From NCBI GenBank assembly GCA_017633115.1, contig JAGBPZ010000145.1, positions 1-32,233 on the forward strand: a stretch of DNA of 32,233 bases, given 5' to 3'. The DNA is from Erysipelotrichaceae bacterium. Its GTDB lineage: Bacteria > Bacillota_I > Bacilli_A > Erysipelotrichales > Coprobacillaceae. Positions 17,824 to 26,920 of the stretch are shown here, in pieces. The position numbers were made by a program, and so were the translations under genes. Numbering within the stretch: the stretch's first letter is position 1; every line of letters starts with the position of its first letter. The notes under the pieces are model-generated. The model did not search any database and was not told the origin of the DNA. It saw only the letters and a list, made by a program, of their open reading frames with translations.

Positions 17824-17859
17824 ATTTATGTATGAATTTTGATACAAAGGAGATTTACA

Positions 17860-19134
17860 TTGGATTCCTCGCAAATATTAATCATTTTTTCATTTATTTT
17901 TTTAATTATATTATCAGCTGTTTATTCTGGATCTGAAACCGCATTTATGTCCGTTTCAAAGATTCGTATTCGTACGATTGCTGAAAATGATAAGCATCCA
18001 GAACAGAAAAAGGCCCTTGCAGTTGATCAATTGTTGGAAGATTCGGATCGTTTGTTGAGTACGATTCTTGTTGGGAACAATCTTGTCAACATTGCCGCCT
18101 CATCTTTGACGACAGCTTTTGTTTTATCAATCTTTGGCGATCAGGGGATTGGTGTTGCTATAGCCACAGGTTTCGTTACTTTAGTTATCTTGATTTTTGG
18201 CGAAATCACACCAAAAACACTTTCTAGCAACAGAGCTGAAGACATGTGTTTTGCTTTATGTGGATTTATACGTTTTAATTATTATTTATTCACCCCGGTC
18301 GTTATTCTCCTGACAGCTTTGAGTCACTTACTCATCAGATTTTTAGGTGCTGATGTTGACGATGGACCAACACTTTCTGAAGAAGATTTGAAAACGATCG
18401 TTGATGTTTCGCACGAAGAAGGTGTCCTTGAAGACGAAGAAAAAGAGATGCTGCATAATGTTTTCAATTTCAATGATACAGCTATTGAAGAAATCATGAC
18501 GCCTCGTATTCACGTAGAGTGGGTCGATGATGATATCACATACAAAGAATTGATGGAAGTTCTCAGACATTCGCAGTTTTCCCGTATTCCTGTTCATGAT
18601 ACTGAACAGGACGAATTTGTGGGTGTCTTGAATATTAAAGATTTATTGATCACGAAAATCGATAAAGAACATTTTGATATTAAAGAGATCATGCGTGAGC
18701 CATTCTTTGTTTATGAATTCCAACACCTGCAGGATGTCTTTGAAGCGATGCGTTCGTCACATATGTCGATTGCCATTGTTCTTGATGAATATGGTGTTAT
18801 GAGTGGTCTTGTCACTCTTGAAGATATCGTTGAAGAGATTTTCGGTGATATCGATGATGAATTTGACCAGGATGACCATGCCATCCTGCAAATTACAGAA
18901 CGTGAATGGATTCTTGATGGTTCTCTTGATATTGATGAAGTCAATGACATCTGTGATACGGAATTCGAAACTGATGACTTTGAATCCATTGGTGGTTTGG
19001 TTTTAGGTGCTTTGAAAGGTAATCCTAAATTATATGACAAAGTGACTATTGACGACACTATTTTGACAATTGAACGAATTGATAAGAATCGTATTTCACG
19101 ATTGAAACTCGTTAAAATGCGACAAAAGGAGTAG
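17860..19134 (+). CDS. CNNM/CorC (hemolysin C) family membrane protein with CBS pair
   Basis: Members of this family are membrane proteins linked to magnesium or other divalent cation transport. The N-terminal CNNM domain has about four hydrophobic segments in the first 170 residues and the motif SGSETAFMSVSKIR. A tandem CBS pair follows (EEIMTPRI, SRIPVHD, then IAIVLDEYGVMSGLVTLEDIVEEIFGDI), and a C-terminal CorC/HlyC transporter-associated domain closes the protein. I start at TTG 17860 because aaaggaga lies 7 nt before it; a further in-frame TTG at 17839 would place this ribosome site inside the gene. The result is 424 residues. The next gene begins 9 nt downstream, so they share a transcript. 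Confidence 0.93.
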   Translation: MDSSQILIIFSFIFLIILSAVYSGSETAFMSVSKIRIRTIAENDKHPEQKKALAVDQLLEDSDRLLSTILVGNNLVNIAASSLTTAFVLSIFGDQGIGVAIATGFVTLVILIFGEITPKTLSSNRAEDMCFALCGFIRFNYYLFTPVVILLTALSHLLIRFLGADVDDGPTLSEEDLKTIVDVSHEEGVLEDEEKEMLHNVFNFNDTAIEEIMTPRIHVEWVDDDITYKELMEVLRHSQFSRIPVHDTEQDEFVGVLNIKDLLITKIDKEHFDIKEIMREPFFVYEFQHLQDVFEAMRSSHMSIAIVLDEYGVMSGLVTLEDIVEEIFGDIDDEFDQDDHAILQITEREWILDGSLDIDEVNDICDTEFETDDFESIGGLVLGALKGNPKLYDKVTIDDTILTIERIDKNRISRLKLVKMRQKE

Positions 19135-19143
19135 AAAGATTTC

Positions 19144-21270
19144 ATGAAAGACAAAATTGGAAAATATGCCTCGATTGCAGCTAATTATGTATCTGACTAT
19201 CGAACATATGTGCCTGCTTTTTCGGGAGCCGCTTTATCATTCTTTTTACTCGTATTAATTGTACCAGCAACTACGATCATTGCTTTAACAGCATCGATTT
19301 TCAATGTTGATCTAAGTATTCTCACAACTGTACTTCAGGAATACTTAGGTGAGTTTGCTTCGATTGTAACAAGCGTTCTTGAAAATGCCTCGTTTTCATT
19401 CAGTTCGGTTGTCATCTTAGCCATCTCAATTTATGCGATTTCTCGTGCAGTTGGGATGATTTATCAAATTTCTAAGAGAATGTTCCCAACTGATAAGTAC
19501 AACAATGAAAATATCATCTTCTATTATGTCTATGTTATTTCGGTTACAGTTGTTCTCTTAGCGATGTTTTCAACGATGATCGTTGTTATTGGTTTAGGTC
19601 CAATTGCCCGTGTTTTCAACATTTTCTATGGCTATATTGTATTTAGAGTTGTCTTGTTTGCGATTATTGCGTTCTTCTTTTTCTTCGTTCTTTATAAGAT
19701 TATTCCAAGAACAACTATTTATGCAGAAGACATTGCGCGTGGTGCGTTGTTTACGACAATTGGTTTAGGTGGATTCTATATCTTTGTCATGATTTATTTC
19801 CATTTTGCGAATTTCTCTAACGTTTATGGGCCACTTGCATCTTTGATCCTTATTTTATTCGTCTTTAACTGGGGTTCAGAAATCTTCTATATTGGTATGT
19901 ATGTCATTCATCTACGTGTGTTAATGCGTAGTGAAAAACGAACACAGGTAGTGACGATTAGAGATATCACTGCCAGAGGTGTTGGTATAACTCGTGTCTT
20001 TGGTAAAAGATGTATGGTACCAAATGCCTTCCCAGGTGAAGAAGTTGAAATTCATGTGGATAAAGATAGAGGCCGTGTATTAAAAGCTCATGTCACACGT
20101 GTATTGACACGTTCTGAAAAGCGTACTCATGCTGAATGCGGTCAGGCAGAAAAGTGTAATGGCTGTTCATTACAGTTTATGAAGTATTATGATCAGATTG
20201 AATTCAAACAGCGTTTAGTTAAAGAATCTATCGCAAAAAATACAAATTTCCGATATGACGATGACGTAGTTATGCCAGTCATGCCTGCTAATGATATCTT
20301 AGGTTATCAGCAGTATGCTGCATTTCCAATTTTTGGCTATTTTGACAAAGTCTATATCGGAATTCCAGACAAAAAAGGCGATAACCACATCTACAAGAGT
20401 AACTGTCCATTACAGGACCGTATGATCAATCGTGTCATGACGCAAATCGAATTCATATTCAACTATTATGATTGTCATGCTTATGATCGTAAAACGAAAA
20501 ATGGCCTTCGCTATTTAATTGTCAAAAAGATTGAAGAAGATATTCATGTCATCATTGTGACAGGCGCAGATGGGGTTCCAGAAAAAGCTCTTAAGGAAAT
20601 TGGTGATATTGATGAAATCGATGGCTTATTTATCAGTATCAATACCGCTCGTAATCCATTGAACTATGAGGACAAGATTCAGAAGATCTATGGTGAAGAT
20701 TATCTACGTTATCACTACCAGGGCGATGAATATATTCTTTCTGCAGGTAGTTATGTCTTCATTTCTCCAGAGATGGAAGATAATACGATTCAGCTTCTCA
20801 AAGATATGCTTAATCCTGAAGACCGTGTACTGTCAGCTTATTGTAAGTCAGGTATTCTTGAAATGCAGTTGCTGAATGAAAAAATTGTCGCTATCGATGA
20901 TTTGAAATGTAACATTGAAGATGCGGCCAATAATGCGAAACGCCTTGGTAAAGATAATATTCAGTTCATTTGTAAAAATGTTGAAGGTGAAATCGTTAAT
21001 CAGCTGCAACATGGCAATTTCGATTCCATTATTCTTCATTTACGTGACCGTATTATCACGATGGGTACTTTACAGGCATTATTCCAGAGTGAAAGCATAA
21101 AGAATATTTATTTCATCAGTGATGACCCAAGTATCTTTATGCAGTCAATGAAATCAGCCGATTTCTCTTTGAAACGTCTCGATGCGTTTATTCTTGAAAT
21201 CGTTTGGTGTGTTGATAAAGAACCATATACATCACGTGTTGAAACATTATTCCATTTCTATAAAGCATAA
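19144..21270 (+). CDS. Fusion of a YihY/BrkB membrane domain with a degenerate TrmA/RlmD-type RNA methyltransferase
   Basis: The 708-residue frame is uninterrupted. Residues 1-265 look like the YihY/BrkB family, with about six hydrophobic segments (near 25-50, 85-110, 124-152, 158-187, 198-222 and 227-255). Residues 269-318 are a TRAM RNA-binding domain (VGITRVFGKRCMVPNAFPGEEVEIHV). Fe-S cysteines of the TrmA/RlmD family are present at C332, C338, C341 and C421. The catalytic part is degenerate: the FFQvN motif is replaced around 536-540, the SAM loop reads LSAYCKSGILE (563-573), DPPR is replaced by HLRDR (632-636), and the nucleophile Cys of SCNP is D660 in SDDP. A Glu corresponding to the general base may remain in RVETL. 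RVLxRSEKRTx occurs at 258-268 and again at 319-329, flanking the TRAM domain. It follows the CNNM gene by 9 nt and ends before a terminator. Methylation activity is unlikely; an Fe-S, RNA-binding, membrane-anchored role is inference. Confidence 0.85.
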   Translation: MKDKIGKYASIAANYVSDYRTYVPAFSGAALSFFLLVLIVPATTIIALTASIFNVDLSILTTVLQEYLGEFASIVTSVLENASFSFSSVVILAISIYAISRAVGMIYQISKRMFPTDKYNNENIIFYYVYVISVTVVLLAMFSTMIVVIGLGPIARVFNIFYGYIVFRVVLFAIIAFFFFFVLYKIIPRTTIYAEDIARGALFTTIGLGGFYIFVMIYFHFANFSNVYGPLASLILILFVFNWGSEIFYIGMYVIHLRVLMRSEKRTQVVTIRDITARGVGITRVFGKRCMVPNAFPGEEVEIHVDKDRGRVLKAHVTRVLTRSEKRTHAECGQAEKCNGCSLQFMKYYDQIEFKQRLVKESIAKNTNFRYDDDVVMPVMPANDILGYQQYAAFPIFGYFDKVYIGIPDKKGDNHIYKSNCPLQDRMINRVMTQIEFIFNYYDCHAYDRKTKNGLRYLIVKKIEEDIHVIIVTGADGVPEKALKEIGDIDEIDGLFISINTARNPLNYEDKIQKIYGEDYLRYHYQGDEYILSAGSYVFISPEMEDNTIQLLKDMLNPEDRVLSAYCKSGILEMQLLNEKIVAIDDLKCNIEDAANNAKRLGKDNIQFICKNVEGEIVNQLQHGNFDSIILHLRDRIITMGTLQALFQSESIKNIYFISDDPSIFMQSMKSADFSLKRLDAFILEIVWCVDKEPYTSRVETLFHFYKA

Positions 21271-21282
21271 AAATTTAGATGT

Positions 21283-21318
21283 AAAGACAAAAGTGATTTC
21301 ATGCGCTTTTGTCTTTTT
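21283..21318 (+). terminator. Terminator after the YihY-methyltransferase fusion
   Basis: AAAGACAAAAG (21283-21293) and CTTTTGTCTTT (21306-21316) form an 11-bp stem with a 12-nt loop and a short T-run. It separates the two methyltransferase-like genes into different transcripts. Confidence 0.85.
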
Positions 21319-21336
21319 CTTCGCCATTAAGAGTGT

Positions 21337-21342
21337 TATAAT
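21337..21342 (+). promoter_or_regulatory. Extended -10 promoter of the second methyltransferase-like gene
   Basis: A perfect TATAAT preceded by TGT lies 30 nt before the start codon. The -35 position (TTTTTC, 21314-21319) falls in the preceding terminator tail and is weak. Confidence 0.65.
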
Positions 21343-21371
21343 AACGAAGACTTTTTAAGGAGGATTGTAGA

Positions 21372-22694
21372 ATGAGATTTGAAACAATGACGATTAAACG
21401 TGTAGGTATTAATGGTGAAGGTATTGGCTATGTTCACAATAAAATTTGTTTTGTGAAAAATGCTTTACCTCTTGAAGAAGTAGACGTCAAAATCGTCAAA
21501 GAAGAACGCCGTTTTATGATTGGCGAAGTTAAAACAATTAAGAAGAAATCATCAATGAGACAAAAATCTCCATGCCGTCAGTTTCCGGCTTGTGGTGGTT
21601 GCGCTTTATTGCATATGAATTATGCAGATCAGTTAAATTTTAAATTGGACATTTTAAAAGAAACCTTGGAAAAATATGCGCCATATGATTTAAGTGAAGT
21701 TCACTTCTATCCAGTGCAGGGGATGGAGTCTAACCGCCATTATCGTCAACAGATTGCCTTACCAGTTACTTATGATAAAGGCAAATTGAGAGTAGGCATT
21801 TATCAACGTGAGAGTAAGATTCTGACATACATGGATCATTGTGTCATGCAGGACCGCGTGATCAACGATGCAATTGTGAAGATTGAAGAAATCCTCAACA
21901 AGTATCATTGTCATGATTACAACGATAAGTTTAAAAAAGGTATTCGATTCCTGATTATCCGCAAAGTCAGTGATGAATTACAAGTCATCTTTGTCACGGG
22001 TACTGATGGTATTGATAAGAAAGCAACACATGAAATGACTAAGATCGATGCCGTTAAAGGTTTATTCTATACAGTCAATACGACCAGACATCAAGATTTT
22101 GCCTTACAGGGTTATAAACGCATTTATGGCACGCCTTATTTAAGCTATGACTATAATGGTCATACTTATACTTTCTCCGTTAAAACCGATTTAATTGAGA
22201 ATACGGATGCTTTTGATGCTGAAGTTAAACTTTTACGAGAACGTATTGCGAAAGAAGATAAAGTTTTATCAATCAATTGTGGTAATGCGATTGTGGAATG
22301 TGAACTTGATCAAGAAATAGTCGCTATTGATGAATCTAAAGAAAACACTGATTCAGCCGAAAAGAATATTGAAAAGAATGGCTTTGAACATATTCGTGTT
22401 ATTCATGGTAAAGTGAAAGACATTGCCGCTTCGCAAATGCGTCATCACAAATATGACACCGTCATTATTCGTCTTAAACGCGATCAGATTAATGGTGATC
22501 TCGTAGAGTCACTTTACAAAGGACATGTACAAAAAGTCATACTCATCAGTGATAATGTCAGTTCACTCGCAAAAAGCTTAAAAGATGATAATGATTATTT
22601 CGTCAAATACTTTAACTTTGTATCTGCTGATGCAATTGACCATGCACCACATTCTGCACGTGCCAATTATATTCTGACATTAGAAAGAAAGTAG
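21372..22694 (+). CDS. TrmA/RlmD-family protein lacking catalytic residues (pseudo-methyltransferase)
   Basis: At 440 residues it has the full RlmCD/TrmA layout. A TRAM domain lies at 1-58 (GINGEGIGYVHNKICFVKNALPLEEVDVKI by family fit). Fe-S cysteines are C68, C74, C77 and C157. The catalytic motifs are lost: the SFFQvN segment is KTDLIENT (271-278), the SAM loop reads LSINCGNAIVE (299-309), DPPRKG becomes RLKRDQ (367-372), and the nucleophile position in SCNP is D394 in SDNV. The C-terminal PHxxHVE motif reads PHSARAN, so the general-base Glu is also gone. The Cys-to-Asp change matches the upstream fusion protein, so the two look like diverged duplicates. It is preceded by ttaaggaggattg and followed 7 nt later by rmuC. 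Confidence 0.85.
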   Translation: MRFETMTIKRVGINGEGIGYVHNKICFVKNALPLEEVDVKIVKEERRFMIGEVKTIKKKSSMRQKSPCRQFPACGGCALLHMNYADQLNFKLDILKETLEKYAPYDLSEVHFYPVQGMESNRHYRQQIALPVTYDKGKLRVGIYQRESKILTYMDHCVMQDRVINDAIVKIEEILNKYHCHDYNDKFKKGIRFLIIRKVSDELQVIFVTGTDGIDKKATHEMTKIDAVKGLFYTVNTTRHQDFALQGYKRIYGTPYLSYDYNGHTYTFSVKTDLIENTDAFDAEVKLLRERIAKEDKVLSINCGNAIVECELDQEIVAIDESKENTDSAEKNIEKNGFEHIRVIHGKVKDIAASQMRHHKYDTVIIRLKRDQINGDLVESLYKGHVQKVILISDNVSSLAKSLKDDNDYFVKYFNFVSADAIDHAPHSARANYILTLERK

Positions 22695-25145: not shown

Positions 25146-25610
25146 TTATAAATCTAAAAAACCGGTATTTTTCACTACATTTTCGTATCGCAACTTTTCG
25201 TTTTGTTTAAGTGCTTGTCCTTCAAGAGAGTGAGCAATGACATCTGCATCTTTGATCAGTTCACAGTAGTTATCATCAATGTCATTTTTGTTGGAATGCT
25301 TTCTAATGGCTTCAGTGATGATAGCCATTTCTTCACTGGTAAACAGTTGAGTTTCCTTTAACAGCTGTCCAGCCATATATGATGAACGAGATGCATGCGC
25401 AAAATGATTACAGTCAATCGCAATGCTCATATCATGAAGTAAACCAATGATTGCAGCTAGCTCTTCATCAAGATGACGATAACGCGCCAAAATTATACAG
25501 ATGGTTGAAACCTGGATCAGATGGCTGTAGGCGTTTCTTTTGTAGAAACCATGACTTTTGCTTTCTAATAGTGTGAATAATTCATCTTTCACAACTTCAT
25601 AACGATTCAT
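25146..25610 (-). CDS. HD-domain phosphohydrolase-like protein
   Basis: The 154 residues carry the metal-binding pattern of HD hydrolases: a His in YSHLIQVS, the His-Asp pair in GLLHDMSI, further His in NHFAHASRSS and IRKHSN, and Asp in LIKDADVIAH. Such proteins often cleave nucleotides or phosphate esters, or act as small metal-dependent phosphatases; the substrate here is unknown. There is no signal peptide. Its ATG overlaps the stop of the upstream rsmF-like gene as ATGA, so the two are translationally coupled. No terminator is visible after it, and transcription may continue into the NlpC/P60 gene. Confidence 0.85.
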   Translation of the reverse strand: MNRYEVVKDELFTLLESKSHGFYKRNAYSHLIQVSTICIILARYRHLDEELAAIIGLLHDMSIAIDCNHFAHASRSSYMAGQLLKETQLFTSEEMAIITEAIRKHSNKNDIDDNYCELIKDADVIAHSLEGQALKQNEKLRYENVVKNTGFLDL

Positions 25611-26920
25611 CGTCTTAATCCTTTCGGTAATAGATTTTTAATTTCATGACTTTCTTTGAAAAAGGAGAGAGGCTGGTCATCAACAAAAATGACGCCATAG
25701 CCTTTACCGCCTCTTGATGGCAGTGTTTCTCCATGTAAATAACGTTTGATGTCTTCATCGTCTTCATCAAAATCATAGCTCAGTTTGACATCGTCTTTTG
25801 ATAATGTGAGCGCCAGAGAGTGAGAAGGGATGAAGCGATTTTTGCGTACTTCTCCAAGATAGAGGCCATTACGCAATATACGTATTTTTGGAAGTTCTGG
25901 GAACTGTGGACAAATGGCATAGATATGACCATTATGATCCACTAAATGTTTTGGTACATTGATGTTAAGGTGTTGATGATAGAAATCTTCGACAACAGCT
26001 CTTGTTTTTTTGGTGATAGACGGTGTCTGGTATTTTATACGTTTTGTCTGACCTTGTTCATCTTTGATGAGTTTAGCCATAAAATGACCTTCACCCTGAT
26101 AAAGATGAGGATAGCAGCGGACTGCTTCTTCCATTTTGATACCAGGCATTAGACCATGGCTTTTTTCTAAAGGAACAAGATGGCACTGATGATGTGACAG
26201 CGCATAGCGAATTGTTTCTTCGTTTTCTTCTGGGGCATAGGTACATGTCGAATACATAAGAGTACCTCCTGGTTTAAGAAGTGTCATGGCAATATCGATA
26301 AGTTGACGCTGGACCAAAGCACATTCTTTGACTTTATCTTCTGACCATGTTGCTTCTGCCTGTTCAGTCGTTCTTAACATGCCTTCACCACTACATGGGG
26401 CATCAAGGATGACTTTATCAAAGAAACTATCTAATAATCCGATGAACGATTTAGGATTTGCAGATGTTACAATTGTATTCTTCAAACCAAAACGTTCACA
26501 ATTTTCACTGAGTATTTTCGCTCGGGCATTTGAAATGTCATTAGCGAGCATGAAACCTTGATTATTCAATTGACTTGCTACAGCACATGTCTTTCCTCCA
26601 GGAGCTGCACAAAGATCGATCACATAATCATCAGGTTCAACGTCAAGATAATGAGCAACAAGCATGGCACTGGGCTCCTGAATATAATAGGCACCACTTA
26701 CAAATAATGGTGAGCGTCCTGGATGATACTCTTCACTATAATAATAGCTGTCTTGAACAATTGGATGAGGCGTAATTGTATCCTGATGTTTGTCAAGAAA
26801 TGACGGATTACGGGCAGGATTGAGATAAAATGATTTATAAGGTGGCTGCTTTAAAGAAGCAATAAAATTATCATAACTTTCGTTTAGAAGTTGTTTCATA
26901 CGCTTATAGAATTCATCCAT
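25607..26920 (-). CDS. rsmF: RsmF-like rRNA m5C methyltransferase (NOL1/NOP2/Sun family)
   Basis: This 437-residue enzyme should methylate a cytosine in 16S rRNA using SAM. The Rossmann core has IDLCAAPGGKT (101-111) for SAM binding, DAPCSGEGM with C176, and YSTCTYAPEEN with the catalytic C226. The N-terminal segment and the C-terminal PUA-like RNA-binding region (about 300-437, including SRGGKGYGVIFVDDQPLSFFKE) match the Gram-positive RsmF architecture. The start ATG follows agaggatgg. It lies only 24 nt downstream of the terminator hairpin of tRNA-Leu, so expression may depend on read-through from the tRNA promoter. It is followed, with a 4-nt overlap, by the HD gene. Confidence 0.92.
   Translation of the reverse strand: MDEFYKRMKQLLNESYDNFIASLKQPPYKSFYLNPARNPSFLDKHQDTITPHPIVQDSYYYSEEYHPGRSPLFVSGAYYIQEPSAMLVAHYLDVEPDDYVIDLCAAPGGKTCAVASQLNNQGFMLANDISNARAKILSENCERFGLKNTIVTSANPKSFIGLLDSFFDKVILDAPCSGEGMLRTTEQAEATWSEDKVKECALVQRQLIDIAMTLLKPGGTLMYSTCTYAPEENEETIRYALSHHQCHLVPLEKSHGLMPGIKMEEAVRCYPHLYQGEGHFMAKLIKDEQGQTKRIKYQTPSITKKTRAVVEDFYHQHLNINVPKHLVDHNGHIYAICPQFPELPKIRILRNGLYLGEVRKNRFIPSHSLALTLSKDDVKLSYDFDEDDEDIKRYLHGETLPSRGGKGYGVIFVDDQPLSFFKESHEIKNLLPKGLRR

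Follow-up and report, generated by a model that had tools for sequence, protein, structure and literature searches.

What do two neighboring proteins of an RNA methyltransferase family do once the residues for methylation are gone? The question is raised by a 32,233-nucleotide contig (JAGBPZ010000145.1, assembly GCA_017633115.1; the window) from an Erysipelotrichaceae bacterium that GTDB places in the Coprobacillaceae, in which two intact open reading frames (ORFs) lie in tandem on the forward strand. ORF A (19144..21270, 708 amino acids) combines a six-helix YihY/BrkB domain with a TRAM domain and a dead RlmD-like protein, and ORF B (21372..22694, 440 amino acids) has the TRAM domain, an iron-sulfur (Fe-S) motif and a dead RlmD-like protein. 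Both proteins retain the RlmD fold and lack the residues for binding uracil and attacking its C6, and they are under strong purifying selection. The explanation that we favor, as somewhat better than an even bet, is that both are retained pseudo-methyltransferase paralogues, with B binding RNA without methylating it as part of a membrane operon and A being a tethered copy. The RNA role of B and its functional link to YihY are what we infer from sequence.

Both proteins match the NCBIfam RlmD model TIGR00479 (162 bits for A, 178 bits for B), and both fall just below its cut-off of 183.55 bits. They share 32% identity across 435 amino acids, and Pfam matches and structural models find the TRAM, central and Rossmann domains of RlmD/RlmCD in each. 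The AlphaFold model of ORF B (mean predicted local distance difference test, pLDDT, 91.9) has Streptococcus pneumoniae RlmCD as its closest fold, with a template modeling (TM) score of 0.92. In ORF A the RlmD-like part is the C-terminal 440 residues. Residues 1-262 (19144..19929) match YihY/BrkB (PF03631) with 51.7 bits, above the Pfam gathering cut-off of 33.7, and form six membrane helices that are borne out by the model and by hydropathy, both ends being cytosolic by charge. In the AlphaFold model of ORF A (pLDDT 89.7) this long hydrophobic helix bundle leads straight into the TRAM domain (PF01938, residues 266-317; 19939..20094), which begins right behind the last membrane helix and whose side is placed in the cytosol by the charge pattern. 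ORF A is therefore a membrane protein whose RlmD-like half lies in the cytosol. Four other genomes have the same architecture, so that there are five fusions, with open frames of 681-708 amino acids in five independent genomes. The first-pass annotation had described both proteins as retaining RNA-binding and Fe-S parts, which suits the C-terminal 440 residues of ORF A but missed its YihY domain.

The family to which ORF A and ORF B belong, RlmCD/RlmD (RumA; COG2265), comprises 23S rRNA methyltransferases that make 5-methyluridine (m5U), with the same whole fold, TRAM and central domain. The two ORFs differ from these enzymes in lacking the SFFQxN motif (F281, Q283), the DPPR motif (D381) and the nucleophile cysteine (C408), as numbered on S. 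pneumoniae RlmCD. These four residues are conserved in none of 29 B-type and none of five A-type proteins, and in all of 21 intact RlmCD proteins of relatives; among 20 orthologues from the sister family Erysipelotrichaceae, F281, Q283 and D381 are present in 20/20 and C408 in 19/20. The replacement of the nucleophile by aspartate in both proteins, noticed at first pass, was confirmed at Ser659-Asp660 of ORF A (21118..21123) and Ser393-Asp394 of ORF B (22548..22553). The general-base glutamate (E443) has an aligned counterpart in ORF A (Glu700) and some relatives, but not in ORF B. An ordinary RlmCD pair with an active site misplaced by the alignment is very unlikely: hidden Markov model scores just under the cut-off and Glu700 of ORF A aligning with the general base would suit it, but three alignments (family, PDB and mixed) concur, and the models are full-length RlmCD folds.

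In S. pneumoniae RlmCD, the D381A and Q283A mutants keep about 2% and 8% of activity, respectively, on U747 RNA, and D381A also strongly cuts activity on U1939 RNA (PMC6235398). From these published mutants and the missing catalytic residues, we infer that neither ORF A nor ORF B makes m5U, and the loss of the m5U catalytic centre that was proposed at the outset, and with it the pseudoenzyme status of both proteins, is well supported.

The cofactor site has a different history. The first-pass annotation called the S-adenosylmethionine (SAM) loop unrecognizable along with the DPPR and SFFQvN motifs; the two motifs are indeed lost, but the SAM loop, as judged from sequence, is degenerate yet recognizable. 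B-type proteins keep its two glycines in 25/29 and 27/29 cases and the ribose-binding acid in 28/29, whereas these are degenerate in the fusions. The window departs further, with one loop glycine gone from ORF A and the other from ORF B. The motif-I Asp has been replaced by Ser in 29/29 B-type proteins and is gone in all proteins including the fusions. It is possible, but improbable, that A and B are active with a changed chemistry, the Rossmann domain binding SAM or another nucleotide for a different methylation target or taking the ligand as a signal. The surviving glycines and ribose acid would fit, as would a Ser at position 310 and a Glu at 319 that are newly invariant in the B-type proteins, a Rossmann part that is about as constrained by selection as the rest, and the finding that RlmCD F281A and D381A still bind SAM (PMC5614603). 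However, none of these proteins has the nucleophile, the motif-I Asp or D381, the acid that lies close to the methyl group; about half have lost the DPPR loop by deletion, and no replacement catalytic set is evident.

A profile of B detects a B-type protein in 43/43 Coprobacillaceae genomes. The named members of this set are Eggerthia, Sharpea, Kandleria, Massilimicrobiota, Longibaculum, Stoquefichus, Faecalibacillus, Thomasclavelia and Beduini, which we take to be the Coprobacillaceae of GTDB. Motifs could be read in 37 of the family genomes (two incomplete), and B is dead in all 37; normal DPPR and SCN motifs were found at none of these loci. Most relatives also carry an intact RlmCD. The ratio of nonsynonymous to synonymous substitution rates (dN/dS) is 0.04-0.20 over whole genes in B pairs, with no domain above 0.32, and 0.118 in a pair of Sharpea fusions, where the YihY part is lowest at 0.039. 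Purifying selection is thus strong and acts on all domains. These values and the conservation reject decay, and pseudogenes or sequencing and assembly artifacts are hardly credible; the fused copies do sit on long branches in the tree, but their frames are open in five genomes and B is universal in the family. Since a whole bacterial family keeps a dead version, the protein has apparently taken on another job, in line with the earlier suggestion of selection for something other than methylation. One B-type gene, in a single-contig genome (G034:C1:2154627-2155927), seems to be split into two frames, possibly by a frameshift.

In a tree of 61 sequences, B and the fusions form one group (100/100) with the intact sister-family proteins outside it, and the five fusions form one group (100/100) within the B clade, in the Eggerthia/Sharpea/Kandleria/G014 branch. 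Catalysis was therefore lost once, with duplication and fusion later, which upholds the proposed duplication after the loss; independent loss in A and B was rejected. That there was a single fusion follows from the tree of the RlmD part, and the YihY part alone supports it weakly (76/68). The Erysipelotrichaceae have an intact orthologue, often placed directly behind yihY, and the restriction of intact orthologues to this sister family dates the loss. The pseudo-methyltransferase family would have arisen once, in the Coprobacillaceae ancestor; its source would be a yihY-linked RlmD/RlmCD paralogue of which the Erysipelotrichaceae still have an intact form. In 16 of the searched sister-family genomes, the gene directly upstream of the orthologue is yihY; 12 of these were confirmed on sequence, with the genes adjacent and co-directed in 12/12 and the motifs intact in 11, so the partnership with yihY is older than the catalytic loss. 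The remaining one, G057 (L232 4920-6236 / L178), has a yihY-linked RlmD with DPPR and FFQLN in which Ser takes the place of the Cys and Gln that of the general-base Glu; this may be a separate, second loss of catalysis.

The case that B binds RNA comes from the positions at which RlmCD contacts its substrate (F146, H151, Q162 and N244-N249). B-type proteins have Y/F at 146, K/R at 151, Q/H at 162, N at 244 and R/K at 247 in 29/29 sequences each, and Q at 249 in 28/29, and the central domain of B is basic, with a mean net charge of +7.3. The fusions, including ORF A, have not retained these residues. B is therefore read as a pseudoenzyme that binds RNA and A as a more derived copy anchored in the membrane, and the RNA scaffold suggested at first pass for both suits B better than A.

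Both proteins have the RumA-type Fe-S pattern (CX5CX2C plus a fourth Cys), the same four-cysteine motif as in E. coli RumA. The TRAM and Fe-S elements recognized earlier are borne out in both proteins, with the cysteines at C332, C338, C341 and C421 of ORF A (20137..20406), invariant in the five fusions, and at C68, C74, C77 and C157 of ORF B (21573..21842), invariant in the 29-sequence alignment A2. All four are lost in B of Kandleria (L140), G015 (L245) and G024 (L246/L136). An essential Fe-S function conserved in B overall was rejected on account of these three genomes, and the proposed Fe-S sensor is weakened accordingly. The cysteine-less B genes have intact frames and lie inside a CNNM-yihY-B-RmuC operon.

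The gene order in the Coprobacillaceae is CNNM-(yihY)-B. The CNNM/CorC-HlyC family membrane transporter (Pfam CNNM, CBS and CorC_HlyC domains), which is the first gene of the operon in the window (17839..19134, forward strand), lies directly upstream of (yihY-)B in 25/27 loci with enough flank. In 21 family genomes the coordinates place yihY directly upstream of B, and the two genes often overlap. The nearest syntenic relative, G014, has the order purB-feADH-CNNM-yihY-B-RmuC, and compared with it the fused gene of the window occupies the exact place of yihY. In Sharpea and in G015/G024 the fused gene is located elsewhere, and the latter two also retain a separate yihY-B pair.

Within the favored explanation, B would no longer methylate and would still bind RNA with its TRAM domain and its central domain, the RNA probably being rRNA- or tRNA-like, as for the parent family. 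B may then be a subunit without catalysis that binds RNA or acts as an adaptor and is linked to the membrane operon CNNM-yihY-B. ORF A would carry this module as the cytosolic part of YihY itself; as its RNA face has drifted, A probably serves mainly as a docking part anchored in the membrane and may pair with B.

Several observations weigh against this explanation. The fusions have lost the RNA-contact residues, and the partly surviving glycine-rich loop and ribose acid of B make cofactor binding possible. B has no adjoining yihY in Thomasclavelia, Faecalibacillus, Eggerthia or Sharpea, and since the Eggerthia genome contains B but lacks yihY altogether, dependence of B on YihY cannot be universal. 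A and B may also not be made together, since a 13-base-pair hairpin followed by a T run (21283..21316, forward strand; -16 kcal/mol, z = -3.7) between them is a likely intrinsic terminator. Together with a TATAAT ahead of B, it suggests that B may have its own promoter as well; the possible extended -10 element, TGTTATAAT (21334..21342, forward strand), was read from the sequence and is absent from the promoter scan list, and is thus tentative.

A less likely candidate makes B a chaperone for ribosome assembly or tRNA in which RNA binding survived and only the chemistry was lost, with the CNNM/yihY vicinity incidental and A a side product of fusion. The RNA-contact positions fixed in B speak for it, as does Eggerthia, and RNA binding by the inactive RlmCD mutants Q283A and D381A is not severely affected (PMC6235398). 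However, the yihY pairing occurs in both families of the order, the CNNM pairing is nearly constant and fusions occur in five genomes; chance neighbors would not be expected to last so long or to fuse.

We also entertain, tentatively, an RNA- or ribosome-coupled membrane module of YihY and dead RlmD, in which an envelope transporter (YihY and/or the CNNM cation exporter) would be controlled by the old RNA face and SAM pocket as sensors, and the membrane would thereby register the state of RNA or of translation. The CNNM link suggests cation homeostasis, as a lead rather than a result: one report describes bacterial CorC proteins as protecting Salmonella against excess Mg2+ (PMC12421838).

One of the closest known counterparts is the YihY-linked RlmD paralogue of the Erysipelotrichaceae (for example Amedibacillus dolichus, L173/L231), which belongs to the same orthologous group and has yihY directly upstream, but differs in having intact catalytic motifs and no adjoining CNNM gene and in never being seen fused. 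The YihY/BrkB family shares the six hydrophobic helices with ORF A, which differs by its C-terminal RlmD-like half; no molecular function of YihY is established in the literature found. TrmFO-like proteins of mollicutes are likewise paralogues of an RNA m5U methylase that have lost both catalytic cysteines while the gene is retained, but they belong to an unrelated flavin/folate enzyme family and are not membrane fused (PMC7226160). The literature searches made turned up no retained pseudoenzyme of the RlmD/RlmCD family, and no paper in the searched literature names YihY/BrkB and RlmD together. The RlmD-family pseudoenzyme described here is fixed throughout a family of gut bacteria, and with the intact yihY-linked sister-family version it forms a before-and-after pair for asking about roles besides methylation. 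The fusion also offers a way to approach YihY, whose membrane family is widespread and has no settled function. Automatic annotation may label B as RlmD, predicting a methylation that it probably does not make.

No intact RlmCD was found in this 171-contig assembly, which is listed as 95.9% complete. In 13/13 relatives compared, the intact RlmCD gene comes after a conserved hypothetical gene, and gatB adjoins it in G014, the relative checked by Pfam; neither gatB nor the hypothetical gene was found in this assembly, in searches that had no positive control. As these flanking genes are missing too, the RlmCD region probably falls in an assembly gap, and the view that this genome has no intact RlmCD was not accepted.

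An RmuC-family gene (PF02646; 22702..23667, forward strand) follows ORF B, a downstream neighbor whose retention is confined to the Eggerthia/Sharpea/Kandleria/G014/G015 branch. Relatives resembling Haloplasma and Acholeplasma have rlmCD preceded by yihY, a polysaccharide deacetylase gene and sometimes a glycosyltransferase gene (L143, L150, L163, L176 and L190; families checked by Pfam in L143, L163, L176 and L190), which points to an even older envelope neighborhood. In the sister family, G068 (L226 3037-7800) has MBOAT and DHHW genes, resembling those for O-acetylation, directly upstream of yihY-RlmD, and G096 (L233) has genes of similar size. Elsewhere in the window, an HD-domain gene adjoins an RsmF-type 16S rRNA methyltransferase gene (25149-26920, reverse strand); this neighborhood is common to Kandleria and G015/G024, and the RsmF-type gene is also present in Eggerthia.

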